Assembly (NCBI RefSeq): GCF_018205975.1
Contig: NZ_CP073577.1
Location: forward strand, 992,001-1,056,000
Reading direction: 5' to 3'
DNA: 64,000 bases
DNA from: Erythrobacter sp. JK5
GTDB lineage: Bacteria; Pseudomonadota; Alphaproteobacteria; Sphingomonadales; Sphingomonadaceae
The notes below the pieces were generated by a model, which was not told the DNA's origin, did not search any database, and saw nothing but the letters and a program-made list of their open reading frames with translations. How positions within the stretch are numbered: the first letter of the stretch is position 1; each line of letters begins with the position of its first letter. Below, piece after piece: positions 3,282 to 64,000 of the stretch. A program made the translations under genes and the position numbers.

Positions 3282-4643
3282 TCAGTCGCTGTCACCTTCG
3301 GGAGTGGCCACCGGTGCGAACGCGCCACCCGGAACGGCGCTGGCGACTGGCGAGCAGAACTCCCCGTCACAGGCGCTCACGCCGAACAGCCAATCGTCGC
3401 CGCGCAGGGGAACGATGGCCGAAACGATGCCGACCCCGGCTGACTCTTCGAGGATTTCGATATCGAGCGGCTCGTCGCGCCAATATGGCTCGTCGGTCCG
3501 GCGCGCGAATATCCGGTAGTCGTAGGCACCGGCAACCGCGTTCCACGAAACCTCGGTGTCGACCCGCACGGCGGCGTCGGCCGTCGGAGCGGGTGGCATC
3601 GGCGTTCTTGCCAGCGCGTCGAGCGCGCTCACGTTCAGCCGTGCAGCGCGGGTCAGGTAATCGAAATCGATTTCGTCGACGGTGTCGCCATACTTGACCC
3701 CATCCTCGGTGCGCAGATCCTGGTGCTGATGCTCGTAATCCTCGACCGCGACGGTGATGCGCACTGCCGGATAGCCCTTGTCGAGAAACGGGATTTGGTC
3801 TCCGCCCCGCCCCATCCGGTCGGTGCGCCAGATCTGCCGCACCTGCATGCCTGCGGGATTCTCTGCGGCAAGATCGGCGAGCCAGCGCGACAGGTTGCGG
3901 CCCGGGCTGTCGTTCTCGCCACCGAACCGACGCTGGCGAGCACGCAGCTCCTCGGTCGAATCCGCCCGCAAACCTTCCGAAAACACCCGCACATGGGCGG
4001 CATCGCACACGCCGTCCGATCCGCACGAATTGCCGATCATGTCGTTGTTGAGCACCGCTTTCACCGTCATGCCCTGATCCTCGACCCAGTCGGCCAGGAT
4101 GCGCGCGCCGTGGAGACCCTGCTCCTCGCCGGTCAGCAAGGCGTAGATGATAGTCGAAGGATATTGCCGCCGGGAGAGGATACGCGCCGCCTCGAGGATC
4201 ATGACACTTCCCGAACCGTCGTCATTCGCTCCCGGCGCATCGTCGGTAGAATTGAGCGGATCGGTGACGCGGCTGTCGTAATGCCCCTGCACGATGATCA
4301 CCTCGTCGGGGCGCACGTTTCCGCGCTGGATGGCGACGGCATTGCGCACCAGCGTCGGCTCGGGAATGCGGGCGGCGGTGACGATTTCGCTCGGCGAAAC
4401 AACCTCGAGGCAATCTCCGCAGCGCGATCCGATCCGCCGGAATTCGTCCAGCGCCCAGTTGACGGCTGCGCCGATCCCGCGTTCGGGATCGTCCTGCGAC
4501 GACAGGGTATGCCGCGTACCGAAGCCGACGATCGTATCCATGTCGGCGCGCAGCCGCGCTTCGGACACCTCTTCGGCAGGTTCATTCTGGGCGGCGAGCG
4601 GCGCAGCACAGAGTGCGGCGATCAGGGCAATGTGTTTGATCAT
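3282..4643 (-). CDS. Secreted M28-family zinc aminopeptidase
   Basis: 453 residues. The N-terminus MIKHIALIAALCAAPLAAQ is a signal peptide, so the enzyme acts in the periplasm or outside. The M28 di-zinc ligands are visible: His in GHYDSR (about 121), Asp in GANDDGSG (about 141), Glu in TGEEQG (about 174), Asp in NNDMIG (about 201), and a late His in DYEHQHQD. After the peptidase domain a roughly 100-residue tail contains a fibronectin-III-like strand pattern (VSWNAVAGAYDYRIF). The ATG at 4643 was chosen over an upstream TTG because it begins the signal peptide directly. The substrate is unknown. Confidence 0.88.
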   Translation of the reverse strand: MIKHIALIAALCAAPLAAQNEPAEEVSEARLRADMDTIVGFGTRHTLSSQDDPERGIGAAVNWALDEFRRIGSRCGDCLEVVSPSEIVTAARIPEPTLVRNAVAIQRGNVRPDEVIIVQGHYDSRVTDPLNSTDDAPGANDDGSGSVMILEAARILSRRQYPSTIIYALLTGEEQGLHGARILADWVEDQGMTVKAVLNNDMIGNSCGSDGVCDAAHVRVFSEGLRADSTEELRARQRRFGGENDSPGRNLSRWLADLAAENPAGMQVRQIWRTDRMGRGGDQIPFLDKGYPAVRITVAVEDYEHQHQDLRTEDGVKYGDTVDEIDFDYLTRAARLNVSALDALARTPMPPAPTADAAVRVDTEVSWNAVAGAYDYRIFARRTDEPYWRDEPLDIEILEESAGVGIVSAIVPLRGDDWLFGVSACDGEFCSPVASAVPGGAFAPVATPEGDSD

Positions 4644-4706
4644 GGCAAGGTCTGTGCCGTGCCGGGCAGCGCAGATCAATAGGCTGCCGAACCGTGGATG
4701 GCGGAC

Positions 4707-5297
4707 CTACTTGCTGAGTTCGTCGAGCTTCTTCTGCATCGCCGCCATCTGCTCGCGCAGGGCCGCGATCTCGTCGCCCGGTTTCTCGTCTGCCGGTTTC
4801 GTGCTGCGCGGCGTTGCAGTGCGCGAAGCGGCACCGGGGATGAACACGTCGGCGGCGGCGCGCATCATCGCCATGTTGGTTTCATGGAGCGCCGCGAGCG
4901 GCCCGCCGCTCAGGCCCTTTTCGAACGCTTCGCGGATCTTGCTCTGGTTGGCGCGAAAATTGGCCATGCTGGCTTCAAGATAGGACGGCATCATCGCCTG
5001 CATGGAATTTCCATACATGCTGATCAATTGGCGCAGGAAGCTGACCGGGAGCATCTGCTGCCCGCTATGCGCTTCCTCGTCCATGATGATCTGGGTCAGG
5101 ATCGAATGCGTGATATCCTCGCCCGACTTGGCATCGATCACCTGAAATTCGACATTGTCGCGGACCATGCCGGCCAGATCGTCCAGCGTGATGTAGCTCG
5201 ACGAACTCGTATTGTAGAGCCGCCGGTTGGCGTATTTCTTGATGATGATCGCGTCGCCAGCGCTGTCGCCCTGCGTCGCATTTGCCTTGCGTGCCAT
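4707..5297 (-). CDS. phaR: Polyhydroxyalkanoate synthesis regulator PhaR
   Basis: A 196-residue DNA-binding repressor of polyhydroxybutyrate (PHB) granule genes. The conserved PHB_acc_N domain is plain near the N-terminus (IIIKKYANRRLYNT, then SSYITLDDLA), followed by the accumulation-regulator domain with LRQLISMYG and a C-terminal coiled coil (EIAALREQMAAMQKKLDEL). Family members bind both DNA and PHB and so tie phasin expression to granule formation. The start is ATG at 5297, with a weak purine stretch (CAGAGAA) upstream. No phaC or phasin gene lies nearby. A palindrome immediately upstream (5334-5348) fits autoregulation. Confidence 0.92.
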   Translation of the reverse strand: MARKANATQGDSAGDAIIIKKYANRRLYNTSSSSYITLDDLAGMVRDNVEFQVIDAKSGEDITHSILTQIIMDEEAHSGQQMLPVSFLRQLISMYGNSMQAMMPSYLEASMANFRANQSKIREAFEKGLSGGPLAALHETNMAMMRAAADVFIPGAASRTATPRSTKPADEKPGDEIAALREQMAAMQKKLDELSK

Positions 5298-58332: not shown

Positions 58333-60507
58333 TCACCCCTCGATCCGGCTGAAATCGGCCACCCGGTGCACCGCATCGCGGAACCGCGCCAGCAGGGCGA
58401 GGCGAGCTTCGCGTTTGGCCGGATCGTCGTCATTGACGGTTACCTCGTCGAAGAAGGCGTCGATGGGAACGCGCAGGGTGGCGAGCGCGGCCATCGCGCC
58501 TTCGAAGTCTTCGGCCTCGATTGCCTGTGCAGCCGTGGGCGCCGCGGCATCGAGCGCATCGATCAGCGCCTTCTCGGCCGGTTCGGGCGAGTAGGAAAGG
58601 GGATTGTCGCCTTGAGCCCCTTCCCTTGAGGGAAGGGGTTGGGGATGGGTGTTCGACGCATCGGACGTGGCACCCCCCACCCCCGGCCCCTCCCCCGTGG
58701 GGAGGGGAGTTGGATAGTCCTCCTTCTTCAGGATATTCGCAGCGCGCTTGTAGCCTGCGAGCAGGTTCACGCCGTTGTCTGTCTCGATAAAGCCTTGCAG
58801 CGCCTTCACGCGGGCTAAGAGGCGAACGAGATCATGCTCATCACCCAAATCCTCATCGCCTCCCAGCGAAGCTACAGCGTCGATGACATCATGCCGGACA
58901 CCTGCTTCGCGCTGCTGCACCTTCAGACGATCAAGAACAAATGAACCGAAATGACCACCTGCGATCACCGTTTCGAGCAAACTATCGCCACCTATAGCGC
59001 GATCAAATGCATCTATGAAATCGAACCGCAGCGAGTTCTCAACGCTAATGGAGATCATCCCGATCACAGCGCGACGCAGTGCAAACGGGTCTTTTGAGCC
59101 AGTAGGACGCTCATCAATTCTGAAGAATTGGGCCAAAGTATCCAACTTATCCGCCAGCGACACCGCCACCGTCACCGGCGCAGTCGGCACGTCGTCGCCT
59201 TGCCCCACCGGTTTGTAGTGATCGCGGATCGCGTCGGAGACTTCCTGCGGCAGACCTTCCTTCTCGGCGTAATATCCGCCCATCAGGCCCTGCAATTCAG
59301 GGAACTCGCCGACCATCTCGGTCACGAGATCGGCCTTGCACAGCCGCGCGGCCTGTTCGGCGAGGCCAGGGTCGCCTTTGACGATGCCCTCTTCACACAA
59401 CCACCGCGCCAGCTTCGCCACGCGCTCGACCTTGTCGGCGACCGTGCCCAGCTTTTCGTGGAATGTAATCCGCTCGAGCTTCTGCGCGTGTTCGGCGAGC
59501 GGCGTTTTCTGGTCCAGCTCCCAGAAGAACCGCGCATCGGAAAGCCGCGCGGCAAGGACCTTCTCATTGCCTGCCGCAACCGCATCGCCGCCATCGTTCG
59601 CTTCGATATTGGCTACGCAGGCAAATACCGGCGCGAGGCTGCCGGCGCGGTTCGCCATGAAATACTTCTGATTGAGGCGGGCCGTGAGCTGGATCACCTC
59701 GGGCGGGACGTCGAGGAATTCCTCGTCGAACCCGCCCACGAGTGGGACCGGCCATTCGGTCAGGCCGGCATTCTCGACCACAAGGCCTTCGTCCTCGATC
59801 ATGTCGAGGCCCATCGCGTCGAATTCCGCGGCCACCTTCACGCGGATGATGTCCTGCCGCTCCTCGTGGTCGACGATCACGTGCGCCGCGCGCAATCTGT
59901 CGGCGTAGTCGCCCGCGCCGTCGATCGCGATCGGCCCGGTGGAATGGAAGCGGTGACCCACAGTTTCGCGCCCGCTGGCAAGCCCGTCCATCACGCACGG
60001 CACGACCTCGCCGTCGAGCAGCGCGACGATGCCTGAGAGCGGACGCACCCACTTCAGGCTTTCGGTCGAGATCGAGGCTTCGCCCCAGCGCATCGACTTG
60101 GGCCAAGAGAAATCGCGGATGATCGCGGGAATGGCGGCGGCGAGCAGGTCGCTGACGGCCTGCCCCGGCTTTTCGATCACGGCAAACCAGGTCGCGCGGC
60201 CCTTGACGTCGCGCTCTTCCAGCTGGTCGCGCGTCACGCCATTCTTGCGGCAGAACCCGTCGACCGCCTGGTCGGGCGCGCCCACCGGCGGGCCTTTCGC
60301 TTCCTCATGGACTGCCCCGGTCTCGGTCGGCAGGCCCTTCGCGATCAGCGCCAGCCTGCGCGGAGTGGACCAAACGGTCACCTCGCCGGTTTCGACGCCA
60401 GCTGCCTCCATCTCGCGGCGGAAGAGCTTTTCTAGCTCCGCACGCGCTCCCGCCTGCATGCGGGCGGGTATCTCTTCAGAGCGCAGTTCGAGCAGGAAGT
60501 CGGCCAT
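58333..60507 (-). CDS. glyS: Glycyl-tRNA synthetase beta subunit, with in-frame repeat insertion
   Basis: 724 residues. With GlyQ it forms the alpha2-beta2 glycyl-tRNA synthetase. It starts [18 protein letters not shown], the canonical GlyS N-terminus, and carries EWPVPLVGGFDEEFLDVPPEV and SLADKLDTLAQFFRIDERPTGSKDPFALRR. Between the anticodon-binding region helix NILKKEDY and EPAEKALIDALD lies a stretch of about 40 Pro/Gly/Glu-rich residues (about 595-635), encoded by a palindromic repeat, which explains the above-normal length. ATG 60507 overlaps the glyQ stop (TGATG). Confidence 0.95.
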   Translation of the reverse strand: MADFLLELRSEEIPARMQAGARAELEKLFRREMEAAGVETGEVTVWSTPRRLALIAKGLPTETGAVHEEAKGPPVGAPDQAVDGFCRKNGVTRDQLEERDVKGRATWFAVIEKPGQAVSDLLAAAIPAIIRDFSWPKSMRWGEASISTESLKWVRPLSGIVALLDGEVVPCVMDGLASGRETVGHRFHSTGPIAIDGAGDYADRLRAAHVIVDHEERQDIIRVKVAAEFDAMGLDMIEDEGLVVENAGLTEWPVPLVGGFDEEFLDVPPEVIQLTARLNQKYFMANRAGSLAPVFACVANIEANDGGDAVAAGNEKVLAARLSDARFFWELDQKTPLAEHAQKLERITFHEKLGTVADKVERVAKLARWLCEEGIVKGDPGLAEQAARLCKADLVTEMVGEFPELQGLMGGYYAEKEGLPQEVSDAIRDHYKPVGQGDDVPTAPVTVAVSLADKLDTLAQFFRIDERPTGSKDPFALRRAVIGMISISVENSLRFDFIDAFDRAIGGDSLLETVIAGGHFGSFVLDRLKVQQREAGVRHDVIDAVASLGGDEDLGDEHDLVRLLARVKALQGFIETDNGVNLLAGYKRAANILKKEDYPTPLPTGEGPGVGGATSDASNTHPQPLPSREGAQGDNPLSYSPEPAEKALIDALDAAAPTAAQAIEAEDFEGAMAALATLRVPIDAFFDEVTVNDDDPAKREARLALLARFRDAVHRVADFSRIEG
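58612..58716. repeat. Double-hairpin REP element inside glyS
   Basis: Two perfect 9-bp stems are present: CCCCTTCCC-TTGA-GGGAAGGGG (58617-58638) and CCCCTCCCC-CGT-GGGGAGGGG (58687-58707), about 50 bp apart. This is the layout of paired REP elements spread by RAYT-type transposases. It is translated as part of glyS with no stop codon in that frame. Confidence 0.85.
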
Positions 60508-61463
60508 CACACCAAGCTCCAGCCCGGGAACTTCTCGGCCCATTTCGGCGCCATCTGTTCGGCGTAGGTCTCGCACGAAGACCGCGCCAGATCGCGCACC
60601 CGGCCCATATAGCTCGCGCGTTCCTGCACGCTGATCACGCCGCGTGCCTGCAGCAGGTTGAAGATGTGGCTGGCTTCGACGGCCTGTTCATAGGCCGCGA
60701 TCGGCACCGCATTGGCGAGCGCATTCTGGCACTCGGCTTCGGCCTTGTTGAACAGGTCGAACAGCGCATCGGTGTCGGCGACTTCGAAGTTCCATTTCGA
60801 CATCTGCTTCTCGTTCTCGAGAAACACCTCGCCGTAGCTCACGCCGCGACCGTTGAAGTCGAGGTCGAACACGTTGTCGACGCCCTGGATATACATCGCC
60901 AGCCGCTCGAGCCCGTAGGTGAGTTCGCCCGCGACCGGCTTGCAGTCGAAGCCGCCCATCTGCTGGAAATAGGTGAACTGGGTGACTTCCATCCCGTCGC
61001 ACCAGACCTCCCAGCCCAGCCCCCATGCGCCGAGAGTGGGCGATTCCCAGTCGTCCTCGACGAAGCGAATGTCATGCTTGAGCGGGTCGATCCCGATCGC
61101 CTTCAGGCTGTCGAGATAGAGCTCCTGGATGTCGCCCGGCGATGGCTTCAGGATCACCTGGTACTGGTAGTAATGCTGCAACCGGTTGGGGTTTTCGCCA
61201 TAGCGCCCGTCGGTCGGGCGGCGGCACGGCTGAACGAAGGCGGCGTTCCACGGCTCCGGGCCGAGCGCGCGCAGGGTCGTCGCGGTATGGAACGTCCCCG
61301 CCCCCATGCGCATGTCATACGGTTGCAGGATCACGCAGCCCTGGGCGCTCCAGAAGTCGTGCAGCGTCAGGATCATGTCCTGGAACGAGCGCGTCGGGTC
61401 GCGACCCGAATCACCTCTCGTTGCAAGCGATTCGTTCGCGGCGTTTCTGACCTCGGATACCAT
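60507..61463 (-). CDS. glyQ: Glycyl-tRNA synthetase alpha subunit
   Basis: 318 residues, the catalytic class II subunit. It has [43 protein letters not shown] (motif 2-like region), [34 protein letters not shown] (as [19 protein letters not shown]), and the GlyQ-specific [22 protein letters not shown] 61463 is used; the region before it is not conserved. It forms an operon with glyS and is divergent from urcA. Confidence 0.97.
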
Positions 61464-61570
61464 GCCGCGCGCAATGGCTGATGCCCCTCTCAGCGTCAAT
61501 GATGCAGTGCAGCATACACCCGATTTTCACAGCCGAAACCCGCACAAATCCTCGGTTTTTGTCACCCCAT

Positions 61571-61589
61571 CCTTACGAAATGTCAGGTC
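61571..61589. promoter_or_regulatory. Left arm of long inverted repeat flanking the urcA promoter
   Basis: CCTTACGAAATGTCAGGTC matches the reverse complement of the right arm (61630-61648) at 18 of 19 positions. It ends 3 bp before the -35 box. It looks like one of two operator sites for a repressor of this locus. Confidence 0.6.
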
Positions 61590-61592
61590 ATG

Positions 61593-61621
61593 TTGACATG
61601 GTCAGCGAATCGCGACATAAA
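61593..61621 (+). promoter_or_regulatory. Sigma-70-type promoter of urcA
   Basis: TTGACA (61593-61598), a 17-bp spacer and CATAAA (61616-61621) match the housekeeping consensus well. The expected start lies near 61628, about 60 bp before the urcA ATG. Both repeat arms bracket it. Confidence 0.65.
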
Positions 61622-61629
61622 GTAAGGGC

Positions 61630-61648
61630 GACCTGACATTTCGGAAGG
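61630..61648. promoter_or_regulatory. Right arm of long inverted repeat flanking the urcA promoter
   Basis: GACCTGACATTTCGGAAGG is the near-perfect partner of 61571-61589. It lies just downstream of the predicted transcription start, a position where a bound protein would block the polymerase. The two arms are 40 bp apart. Confidence 0.6.
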
Positions 61649-61687
61649 TTGATGCGACAAACTTCTCACTCCCCAGGAGAATTAATC

Positions 61688-62029
61688 ATGCGTTTCATTG
61701 CTGCCACTTTCGCCACTTCCCTCGCTCTCATCGCCGCACCGGCCGCCGCCAGCGGGATGAACGCCACCGAGTTCACCGCGGAGGTCCAGCACAAGGATGT
61801 CGACCTCACCAGCCGCGACGGTGTTGCGCTGCTCGATGAGCGACTGAAGACGACAATCCGCCAGCAATGCGCCAATGGCGGCCGCGACCTTCAGTCGATC
61901 CGGCTCGAGCGCGAATGCCGCCAAAGCGCCCTCGCCTCGGTCGAGAGGCAGGTTCGCTTCGCCGTCGCCGAAGCCAAGGCCAACAAGGTCCGTCTTGCCC
62001 AGGGCACTCCAGTTGCACCTCAGGGCTGA
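61688..62029 (+). CDS. UrcA family protein (secreted)
   Basis: 113 residues. A signal peptide (MRFIAATFATSLALIAAPAAAS) precedes a mature part with LTSRDGVALLDERLKTTIRQQC and ECRQSALASVERQV. Two cysteines (QQCANG and ECRQ) could form a disulfide, as in the UrcA family. Function is unknown; the family was first noted as induced by uranium in Caulobacter. CCAGGAGAATTAATC precedes the ATG. A strong hairpin follows, before the membrane-protein genes. Confidence 0.85.
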   Translation: MRFIAATFATSLALIAAPAAASGMNATEFTAEVQHKDVDLTSRDGVALLDERLKTTIRQQCANGGRDLQSIRLERECRQSALASVERQVRFAVAEAKANKVRLAQGTPVAPQG

Positions 62030-62042
62030 CGACACAGCCGTC

Positions 62043-62082
62043 TCTCGGCGGAAGACACCCCAAATCCGGCCTTCCGCCGAGA
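62043..62082 (+). terminator. Strong hairpin after urcA
   Basis: TCTCGGCGGAAG (62043-62054) pairs perfectly with CTTCCGCCGAGA (62071-62082) over 12 bp with a 16-nt loop. No T-run follows, so it may be an attenuator or RNA-stability element that lowers expression of the downstream genes instead of a full terminator. Confidence 0.5.
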
Positions 62083-62118
62083 AAGGCACCCCAACTGGAT
62101 CGAACGAGAAAGAGACCG

Positions 62119-62523
62119 ATGAGCTACCCTGAAGACCCCCACGGACCGCGCAGCTACGGCAGGATGCACCTTGTGCTGAGCCATGTCGCAGCGGTCTCGT
62201 TCCTCGTCATGGTCTTGAGCAGGTTCGAAGTTATCCCGACTTCATTTGGCGTGATTGGCATCACGTTCGGCGTCCTCTCCCTGGTCGTGATGTTCACCAC
62301 ACGCAACAGCGACGAATGGATCGCTTCCCTATGGTCGGCAGGCGCGAATGCGGGATTTTTTGCCGCCATGGCGTGGCTGCTGATCCTGCCGTTTGCCGAA
62401 GGCGCCTACGATGGTCTGCTGGCCAACGAACGCCGACAGGATTTGCCCACTGACCTCGCCTCCTTTGTGGCGATGGGCGCATTTCTCGTCGCCTTTAATC
62501 TCAAGCGGCTGAGAGGATACTGA
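62119..62523 (+). CDS. Four-helix membrane protein A of three-gene set
   Basis: 134 residues, not a recognised family. There are four hydrophobic segments (about 18-33, 41-57, 74-90 and 114-126). Between helices 2 and 3 lies TRNSDEWIASLWSAGANAGFF, whose DE-aromatic motif recurs in the next two genes. The C-terminus ends FNLKRLRGY, closely like that of gene B (QYKRFKGAY). It is the first of four closely packed genes ending in an XRE regulator. GAGAAAGAGA precedes the ATG. Confidence 0.75.
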   Translation: MSYPEDPHGPRSYGRMHLVLSHVAAVSFLVMVLSRFEVIPTSFGVIGITFGVLSLVVMFTTRNSDEWIASLWSAGANAGFFAAMAWLLILPFAEGAYDGLLANERRQDLPTDLASFVAMGAFLVAFNLKRLRGY

Positions 62524-62524
62524 C

Positions 62525-63046
62525 ATGACCGATGCTACACCCGTCTCGTCTCGCCAGAAAGCAGTCGATCGCTATCTCAGGGCCGGGAATATCGGAACGG
62601 CGGCCGCAATCGCTTCTCCCGTCATTTACTTTGCGATGGTAAGCATTCTTGCAGATTGGAAAGAGGGCGATTCCGTTCTCCTGGTCTTGCTCCTCTTTCT
62701 CGCGATCGTGGTCTATCTGATTTGCGAGGCATATTCGGTCTTTCACGTGTTCTTCCGCCGCAAGACGGACGAGTACACCCTGGCAATGTGGCATAGCGGA
62801 ACGACCTTCGCGTTCTTCGCAGCCATGCTCTGGCTTATCCTTGGGCCATGGGTCGAGACAGGCGTCTACGTGTATCTGGATTTCGACGTATTCGAGAGCG
62901 CTTCGGCGCGCGAGAACACGAGCTTCGAAGGCATCCTGGACGAGCCGGCCACTAGGGCCAGTGTTATCGAGCAATTCGCCACTCCGGTGATTCTGGCCGC
63001 GTTCTTTCTCGGCTTCCAATACAAGCGCTTCAAAGGAGCATATTGA
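62525..63046 (+). CDS. Four-helix membrane protein B of three-gene set
   Basis: 173 residues. The layout is as in gene A: two helices, then RRKTDEYTLAMWHSGTTFAFF, then two more helices, ending FLGFQYKRFKGAY. The loop between helices 3 and 4 is longer and acidic (about 40 residues) and probably lies in the periplasm. It is clearly a paralogue of gene A. GAGAGGATACTGAC precedes the ATG, 1 bp after the previous stop. Function unknown. Confidence 0.75.
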   Translation: MTDATPVSSRQKAVDRYLRAGNIGTAAAIASPVIYFAMVSILADWKEGDSVLLVLLLFLAIVVYLICEAYSVFHVFFRRKTDEYTLAMWHSGTTFAFFAAMLWLILGPWVETGVYVYLDFDVFESASARENTSFEGILDEPATRASVIEQFATPVILAAFFLGFQYKRFKGAY

Positions 63047-63498
63047 TGCCCTACGTTCCCAATGAGCCGGACACATATGAGCGCAGCAAGGTCTATCAGA
63101 CCATCTGGATCAGCGCGGCTGCGTCCATTCCGACATTCGCGAACACTTTCATCGGATGGGAAAACTTCCTGATGGCGATCCTGTTCGGAGCGAGCGTCGG
63201 CGGACTTATCGTCGCTTTCATGGCCAACCGGGCCGACGAATACTTTCAGGCCATGATCGGTACCGGGATGCGCTGGGTGATGCTGATCCTGGGGCTGTAT
63301 CTGTTCGCGATTTTCCTGCTCAACATCTCCGATATTTCGTTTTCAGCCGGTGCTGTCATGGCGGGCGGCATTGAGGGAGGATCCGGGGTATCCCCGCTGC
63401 GACATCTCTTGGACGCCAACGTGCTGGGCAAGGGATTGATGATCACATTCTACGCCGGATATGCCTTTGCCTGGAGCAAAGACTGGTGGGGCGGATAG
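63046..63498 (+). CDS. Four-helix membrane protein C of three-gene set
   Basis: 150 residues. It shares the same plan with a more diverged motif, ANRADEYFQAMIGTGMRWVM, between helices 2 and 3, and a Gly/Ser-rich loop before the last helix. Its start overlaps the previous stop (TGATG) and AAAGGAGCATATTG precedes it, so translation is coupled. Function unknown. The three genes differ too much to be recent duplicates. Confidence 0.75.
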   Translation: MPYVPNEPDTYERSKVYQTIWISAAASIPTFANTFIGWENFLMAILFGASVGGLIVAFMANRADEYFQAMIGTGMRWVMLILGLYLFAIFLLNISDISFSAGAVMAGGIEGGSGVSPLRHLLDANVLGKGLMITFYAGYAFAWSKDWWGG

Positions 63499-63502
63499 GG
63501 AC

Positions 63503-63703
63503 GTGAAAAACCGCCTCAAGGTCCTGCGCGCCGAACGCGACTGGAGCCAGGCCGAACTGGCCGCGCGGCTCGACGTGTCGCGTCAGGCCGTGAACGCGAT
63601 CGAGACCGGAAAGCACGACCCCTCGCTCCCTCTGGCCTTTCGCATCGCCCGCCTGTTCGACATGGCGATTGAAGAGGTGTTCGATGACGGCGAAAACAGA
63701 TAA
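63503..63703 (+). CDS. Small XRE-family (Cro/C1-type) regulator
   Basis: 66 residues that form a single helix-turn-helix: KVLRAERDWSQAELAARLDVSRQAVNAIETGKHDPSLPLAFRIARLFDM. It is of the short YozG-like kind that often accompanies small membrane proteins. GTG 63503 starts 4 bp after gene C, so it is translated with the three membrane proteins. It is the obvious candidate to bind the inverted repeat at the urcA promoter. Confidence 0.9.
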   Translation: MKNRLKVLRAERDWSQAELAARLDVSRQAVNAIETGKHDPSLPLAFRIARLFDMAIEEVFDDGENR

Positions 63704-63767: not shown

Positions 63768-64000
63768 ATGAAATTCTCGAAAGTTCTCACGCTGACATCG
63801 GCCCTCAGCCTCGCGCTGTTGGCCGCCAATCCGGTGCTCGCCGACGACCACGCCGCGCACGAGGCCGCGGCTGCGGTCGCCAAAGGCCCGGCACTGTGGA
63901 AGGTCGCAGACGAGGACACCACCATCTACCTGTTCGGGACGATCCATGCCTTGCCCAAGGAAATCGAGTGGTACGATGCCGAAATCGCCGAGGCGCTGAC
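63768..64000 (+). CDS. TraB/GumN family protein, N-terminal part (cut by window end)
   Basis: At least 77 residues; the gene runs off the window. A signal peptide (MKFSKVLTLTSALSLALLAANPVLA) is followed by ALWKVADEDTTIYLFGTIHALPKEIEWY, the GTIH signature of the TraB/GumN (PrgY-like) fold, a putative metalloprotease relative. GAAAGGATCGCTTC precedes the ATG. The complete protein is probably near 300 residues. Confidence 0.85.
   Translation, partial: MKFSKVLTLTSALSLALLAANPVLADDHAAHEAAAAVAKGPALWKVADEDTTIYLFGTIHALPKEIEWYDAEIAEAL

Follow-up and report, generated by a model that had tools for sequence, protein, structure and literature searches.

The best described pairing of a small repressor with a membrane protein is that of CylR2 and CylR1 in Enterococcus faecalis. 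In the available part of the source, CylR2 is described as binding the cytolysin promoter, and CylR1, a suspected membrane protein, as needed for induction; how the signal passes from CylR1 to CylR2 is stated there as not understood (PMC3709268). The literature cited beside this analogy, likewise available in part, also includes PMC11343131. A locus of similar composition is found in Erythrobacter sp. JK5 (Sphingomonadaceae), in the 64,000-nucleotide stretch of contig NZ_CP073577.1 from position 992,001 to 1,056,000 of the forward strand, which is called the window here and to which all unprefixed positions refer. It comprises urcA, three genes for small membrane proteins (A, B and C) and a gene for an XRE-type regulator, preceded by a promoter that carries an array of operator-like sites. 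By analogy with CylR1/CylR2, the locus may be an autorepressed membrane-signalling operon, a reading whose probability is put at roughly 0.58.

The five genes lie on the same strand, and gene calls confirmed the places that a sequence-only reading of the window had given them, together with the gap of 4 base pairs (bp) before the 66-residue regulator:

61688-62029, + strand: urcA, 113 residues, UrcA family (TIGR04433), an optional first gene
62119-62523, + strand: membrane protein A, 134 residues, four predicted helices, TRNSDEW loop
62525-63046, + strand: membrane protein B, 173 residues, four predicted helices, RRKTDEY loop
63046-63498, + strand: membrane protein C, 150 residues, four helices in its model, ANRADEY loop
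63503-63703, + strand: XRE, putative repressor, 66 residues, CylR2-like, GTG start

The three loop motifs and the common C-terminus of A (KRLRGY) and B (KRFKGAY) described by the same reading were also found. Gene A is followed after 1 base by B, C overlaps the stop codon of B by 1 base and XRE begins 4 bp after C; the genes would be read as one transcript.

The regulator matches HTH_3 (PF01381) at E 2.2e-15, scoring 56.9 bits against a gathering cut-off of 23. With phmmer, 59 of its 66 residues (3-61) align to CylR2 at E 1.6e-12. A PbsX-family chain, PDB entry 9k3w, is closer (E 4.8e-24), but among solved structures whose role is described CylR2 is presumably the nearest.

A conserved block before the first gene was first seen in a comparison of five loci from different genera. 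With up to three mismatches allowed, 57 of the 298 family genomes carry its 27-bp core; they represent 27 of 96 genera, and none has it more than once. The reversed pattern gave no match in the same 298 genomes. A gapless alignment of these 57 promoters, the first set of loci, places GTCA-N8-TGAC at offsets -32, -11, +8, +29 and +50 from the TTGACA box. In the window the corresponding sites and promoter elements are:

61561-61576, + strand: operator-like site O0, GTCACCCCATCCTTAC, 7 of 8 letters; at least 7 of 8 in 24/57 loci
61582-61597, + strand: operator-like site O1, GTCAGGTCATGTTGAC, overlapping the -35 box, 8 of 8 letters; at least 7 of 8 in 57/57 loci (its right half lies in the search pattern)
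61593-61598, + strand: -35 box, TTGACA, its conservation partly due to the search pattern
61601-61616, + strand: operator-like site O2, GTCAGCGAATCGCGAC, between -35 and -10, 7 of 8 letters; at least 7 of 8 in 42/57 loci (inside the search pattern)
61616-61621, + strand: possible -10 box, CATAAA (CATATA in most relatives), spacer 17, suggested by column conservation
61622-61637, + strand: operator-like site O3, GTAAGGGCGACCTGAC, over the likely start site, 7 of 8 letters; at least 7 of 8 in 57/57 loci, outside the search pattern
61643-61658, + strand: weak operator-like site O4, GGAAGGTTGATGCGAC, 5 of 8 letters here; at least 7 of 8 in 27/57 loci

The pattern by which the promoters were picked takes in the whole of O2 but only half of O1, whose left half, like O0, O3 and O4, did not enter the selection. 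Across the 57 promoters a spacer of 8 yields 210 near-perfect sites, against 0 to 24 for every other length between 4 and 12, and sites of six or more letters number four or five in 52 loci and three in the remaining 5. The steps between sites (21, 19, 21 and 21 bp) place them along roughly the same face of the helix. In the Erythrobacter genome, this promoter is the only place where two sites with no more than two mismatches stand 21 bp apart. A wider regulon in this genome was rejected because the other site pairs carry three mismatches, and their number per strand (7) comes close to that of the control (4). Seven distinct XRE loci were obtained without the DNA pattern, of which six are readable and the seventh (G178) matches the pattern at four mismatches. 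All six readable loci have two to four clustered upstream sites, with one to six site pairs within 95 bp in each, where background predicts 0.034 per 1.4 kilobases (kb); one step among them, in L078, is 37 bp instead of 39-40.

Proteins A, B and C match no Pfam or NCBIfam model above cut-off, and a search with them and two relatives returned no PADLOC family at E 0.1. They had been suggested to be DUF2178-like, an assignment that was rejected, as PF09946 has no match above the Pfam cut-off in these proteins and none anywhere in the genome. Their relationship to each other, also proposed from the sequence, is borne out. A finds B in its own genome with 39% identity over 44 residues, and BLAST between the two gives 1.5e-8 or 5e-4, depending on which is the query. 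When the called membrane proteins of the first set were joined by single linkage at E<1e-6, A, B and C fell into one cluster of 34; the stricter E<1e-8 kept A and B together (33 members) and set C apart (26 members). The A/B and C profiles align in HHalign at 98.7% over 134 columns, compared with 24.2% and 19.9% when one profile is reversed. The A/B profile also aligns with two further groups at these loci, a D type (96.4%) and a family encoded after XRE, here called the post-XRE family (92.6%), with reversed values of at most 2.2%. The A/B alignment contains 11 of 15 listed members, four of 79-88 residues having been dropped. Reversed profiles served as the control; rotated profiles, which keep local blocks, mostly stayed high and are not a negative control. 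Taken at profile level, A, B and C are paralogues belonging to one family.

The loop motif of A and B reads R-x-x-D-E-aromatic; its D and E are invariant in 27 A/B proteins, and the D in 12 C proteins. An aspartate followed by D or E lies within the loop between helices 2 and 3 in 75 of the 78 proteins that have four predicted segments. Lysine and arginine are concentrated in the N-terminal tail, this loop and the C-terminal tail, and the DE loop is therefore predicted to be cytoplasmic. AlphaFold2 models of B and C, with predicted local distance difference test scores of 85.6 and 82.0, show four long helices, the third of which begins with the DE pair. They agree with the plan of two helices, a DE loop and two helices proposed for all three proteins, although for C this plan is that of the model, simple hydropathy counting only two strong segments. 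Among relatives, locus L014 carries a tandem duplicate of the D-type family (4113-5205; motifs FMRDDY and FMRDEY) before its XRE gene. The post-XRE membrane proteins of L084, L085 and L086 include some with no recognisable DE pair, which in L084 and L085 adjoin an intact one; these are possibly divergent or decayed copies.

The surroundings of the locus are also conserved. In the window its neighbours are:

60507-61376 (start approximate), - strand: glyQ, glycyl-tRNA synthetase alpha, divergent neighbour, PF02091 at E 3.5e-143
63768-64000 (cut by the window end), + strand: GumN/TraB-like gene, downstream neighbour, a gene call with PF01963 found on the relative in L014

Family assignments of glyQ, TraB/GumN, ribosomal protein L25 (rplY), peptidyl-tRNA hydrolase (pth) and a threonyl-type synthetase (thrS) were made with Pfam on one representative each. 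In the first set, both XRE and the GumN/TraB-like gene lie downstream of the promoter on its strand in 57/57 loci, and glyQ is divergent upstream in 42/57. In many loci a second GumN/TraB-like gene follows the first, and rplY and pth often come next. At least one membrane gene accompanies XRE in every locus, as had been expected from the window; 55 have called genes and two loci of low guanine-plus-cytosine content (L127 and L128) were read by hand. The number called ranges from one to four, reaching five in a second set of loci, and is just one in 29/57; no membrane gene is called after XRE in 13/57 loci, L127 and L128 included. The paralogues are real, but the set of three to which the sequence-only reading had drawn attention is a local state. 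Gene order relative to XRE is strict, and in this respect the window is representative of its relatives: members of A/B precede XRE in 33/33 cases and those of C in 26/26, the post-XRE family follows it in all 97 placed members, and the D type precedes it in 11 of 12. Neither outcome that would have counted against the sequence-only reading, membership of unrelated families or an order not kept in relatives, was seen. The operator array, the setting between glyQ and GumN and the similarity to CylR2 go beyond that reading. Overlap of XRE with the gene before it is found in 24/38 loci, and with the gene behind it, where this is not GumN, in 41/47.

The second set came from a scan with a 21-letter core, using one genome per species, which gave 104 stretches; the counts in this paragraph refer to the 69 of the 80 listed stretches that have at least 1000 bases downstream. 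The titles of those listed name sphingomonad genera (Erythrobacter, Qipengyuania, Sphingopyxis, Novosphingobium, Blastomonas and others), which are taken to be Sphingomonadales, or unspecific proteobacterial bins, and the two sets overlap in species. XRE is present in 68/69, GumN in 63/69 and glyQ in 64/69; the sole stretch without XRE (L211) ends 1.3 kb past the promoter. A membrane gene is called in 64/69 and hand reading shows a membrane frame in the other five, one of which (L190) retains a 67-residue piece only and another (L203) is cut by the end of the stretch.

Simpler forms of the same arrangement occur elsewhere. XRE was found at E 1e-15 or better in 9 of 190 genomes drawn from the class, and each of the seven XRE loci read outside the family (7/7) has an adjacent gene for a DE-type membrane protein. 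These proteins matched no named family. A profile of six of them with one protein from a genome within the family (L275) aligns at 95.6% with the post-XRE family and at 98.4% with the membrane proteins encoded at a second XRE locus of the sphingomonads, reversed values being 1% or less; it gives 49.6% with C and 0.2% with the D type. Together, the outside-family loci and the profile alignments indicate that the pair of XRE and DE-motif membrane protein is widespread in the class and that the locus in the window is, by this sequence comparison, an expanded form of it. The second locus of the Erythrobacter genome encodes an XRE protein 74% identical to the first:

L011:5067-5894 (own genome, C1 2529066-2529893): second XRE gene, directly behind a gene for a DE-motif membrane protein, beside thrS

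Of 21 such second loci read, 19 were readable, and in all 19 a gene for a DE-motif membrane protein lies directly upstream of XRE. Exact (8/8) GTCA-N8-TGAC sites occur upstream in 6/19, and the 1.2 kb upstream of 12/19 contain sites of at least seven letters, where background predicts about 0.8 per locus.

A mechanism is proposed on the strength of the analogy with CylR1/CylR2. The CylR2-like XRE protein would bind, as dimers, to the GTCA-N8-TGAC sites, about two helical turns apart, and with sites over the -35 box, the -10 box and the start occupied it would shut the operon down. The four-helix proteins may present their cytoplasmic DE loop and basic tails to the repressor and contact it directly, binding or releasing it in response to a ligand or to the condition of the membrane. 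An event at the membrane would then cause derepression, raising the levels of the membrane proteins, the repressor and, where present, UrcA, and the set of paralogues could allow one repressor to read several inputs. A more ambitious version makes the locus a signalling hub of the Sphingomonadales core genome, in which a single CylR2-like repressor on a phased five-operator array serves an expandable series of paralogous four-helix receptors, the DE loop of each reading a different membrane cue, so that information passes from membrane to DNA in one step without phosphorylation. This extension is offered tentatively and is, on balance, doubtful.

Several observations weigh against the proposal of an autorepressed signalling operon. 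Single GTCA-N8-TGAC matches are no more frequent in the window than in shuffled sequence (19 against 19.8), so that the array is informative and a lone site is meaningless, and the fifth site of the window is weak at 5 of 8 letters. A consensus promoter scan, by its rule, gave no sigma-70 match here. An operator common to both repressors is not established, because the second XRE locus of the Erythrobacter genome has no site of seven or more letters. The membrane superfamily depends on a chain of alignments because some of its families do not align directly: HHalign gives 7.4% for C with the D type, 7.5% for the post-XRE family with the D type, 15.7% for A/B with the second-locus family and 8.4% for C with the latter. 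Fold comparison gave the membrane proteins no match that would back a sensor role, and glyQ was not found adjoining 15/57 loci.

The protein encoded by urcA matches TIGR04433 at E 3.3e-19, with 68.8 bits against a curated cut-off of 25. In the available part of the source, Caulobacter UrcA is periplasmic, is induced by uranium and has no known function, and a UzcR motif is reported for its gene (PMC8963506). As a candidate element before urcA in the window, the motif CATTAC-N6-TTAA was rejected; its single match there, at 61637, has two mismatches, and in the window as a whole it occurs no more often than by chance (4 matches against 7.5 in shuffles). The link between urcA and the membrane genes through a common promoter, to which the sequence-only reading had pointed, stands in so far as the conserved promoter does precede urcA; the gene itself is optional. 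It is present in 13/57 loci of the first set, always as first gene and 88-99 bases from the TTGACA box, and urcA-like genes are found in 30/71 loci of the second. In L193 two UrcA-like genes stand in tandem behind the promoter, at offsets 61 and 499. Between urcA and gene A lies a hairpin:

62043-62082, + strand: hairpin with a 12-bp stem (TCTCGGCGGAAG...CTTCCGCCGAGA) and a 16-nucleotide loop

The length of its stem was reached by 0 of 100 shuffles, and hairpins exceeding shuffles follow urcA in 20/37 loci. It is perhaps a partial terminator that separates urcA from the other genes.

The main rival explanation holds that the membrane proteins are effectors, which protect the envelope against a peptide, a metal or membrane stress or confer immunity to an antimicrobial, and that XRE is a local autorepressor released in some other way, without contacting them. 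Changing selection on such effectors would fit the variation in number and type of membrane genes beside a constant XRE and operator, and an effector role suits the presence, as first gene of some loci, of a relative of the uranium-induced Caulobacter protein (PMC8963506, from the part available). It accords less well with the overlap of XRE and membrane genes, with the pairs outside the family, which are found without urcA, and with the many loci that have a single called membrane gene; no gene for a toxin or bacteriocin stood out in the gene calls, in which no aimed search for one was made. This explanation is considered unlikely, though it deserves more weight than the other two.

That urcA adjoins the membrane genes but is independent of them, with the conserved promoter serving urcA or XRE only, could account for the absence of urcA from most of the first set, and the hairpin behind urcA could end most transcripts. 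Where urcA is missing, however, the same promoter precedes the membrane genes or the XRE gene, which makes this explanation improbable. Least probable is a toxin-antitoxin or phage-defence module with XRE as antitoxin, for all that a small XRE gene adjoins small membrane proteins and that XRE has a generic similarity to antitoxins, control proteins and CapH. It was rejected in view of the lack of PADLOC matches among the membrane proteins and of the chromosomal position, which in most genomes is the interval from glyQ to GumN instead of a varying place; moreover, the NCBIfam matches shown for XRE fall under the curated cut-offs.

No paper describing this locus was found in searches of one open-access library, which lacks most subscription papers; within that library, the lack of a known function for the three-paralogue set, remarked on in the sequence-only reading, was upheld. 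The function of such a locus matters in that pairs of a small repressor and a membrane protein are mechanistically unsolved even for CylR1/CylR2, according to the available part of the source (PMC3709268). In this locus of environmental bacteria the promoter, about 100 bp long, is strongly conserved, the putative repressor has 66 residues, and the number of partners varies naturally across 27 genera; contact between membrane protein and repressor is therefore directly testable with a reporter. A function would thereby be assigned to membrane families that received no Pfam, NCBIfam or PADLOC name in this analysis.

Set beside known systems, the locus has a likeness to DUF2178 (PF09946) in the earlier suggestion only, and the model matches neither the proteins nor the genome. 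With the UrcA family (TIGR04433) it shares its first gene, and it differs from Caulobacter urcA in that the UzcR motif is at chance level here. The second XRE locus is alike in its closely related repressor and in the membrane gene directly upstream; it differs in its place on the chromosome and in its exact sites, which are seen in 6/19 of these loci and not in that of the Erythrobacter genome. The alphaproteobacterial pairs differ in having one or two membrane genes and no urcA seen beside them, but the same pair recurs in all seven loci, and the profile of their membrane proteins aligns with the second-locus (98.4%) and post-XRE (95.6%) families.

With CylR1/CylR2 the comparison is one of organization and, for the repressor, of sequence. 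The membrane proteins and CylR1 are set side by side by description and not by sequence, and here several four-helix paralogues take the place of one protein with three predicted helices. The divergent gene is glyQ (PF02091) in place of a lanthipeptide operon, and the genes of the cassette lie on one strand, small precursor peptides not having been searched for; the array at this locus has up to five sites. What the two have in common is a 66-residue XRE protein encoded beside a small membrane protein, an association seen here in 57/57 loci. CylR2 works on its own operon through the promoter region, as described in the available part of the source (PMC3709268); in the window a predicted array of dyads lies at the promoter, where XRE may bind. 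With a regulator of known kind and simpler pairs elsewhere, the locus is best regarded as an expanded relative of a known membrane signalling pair.

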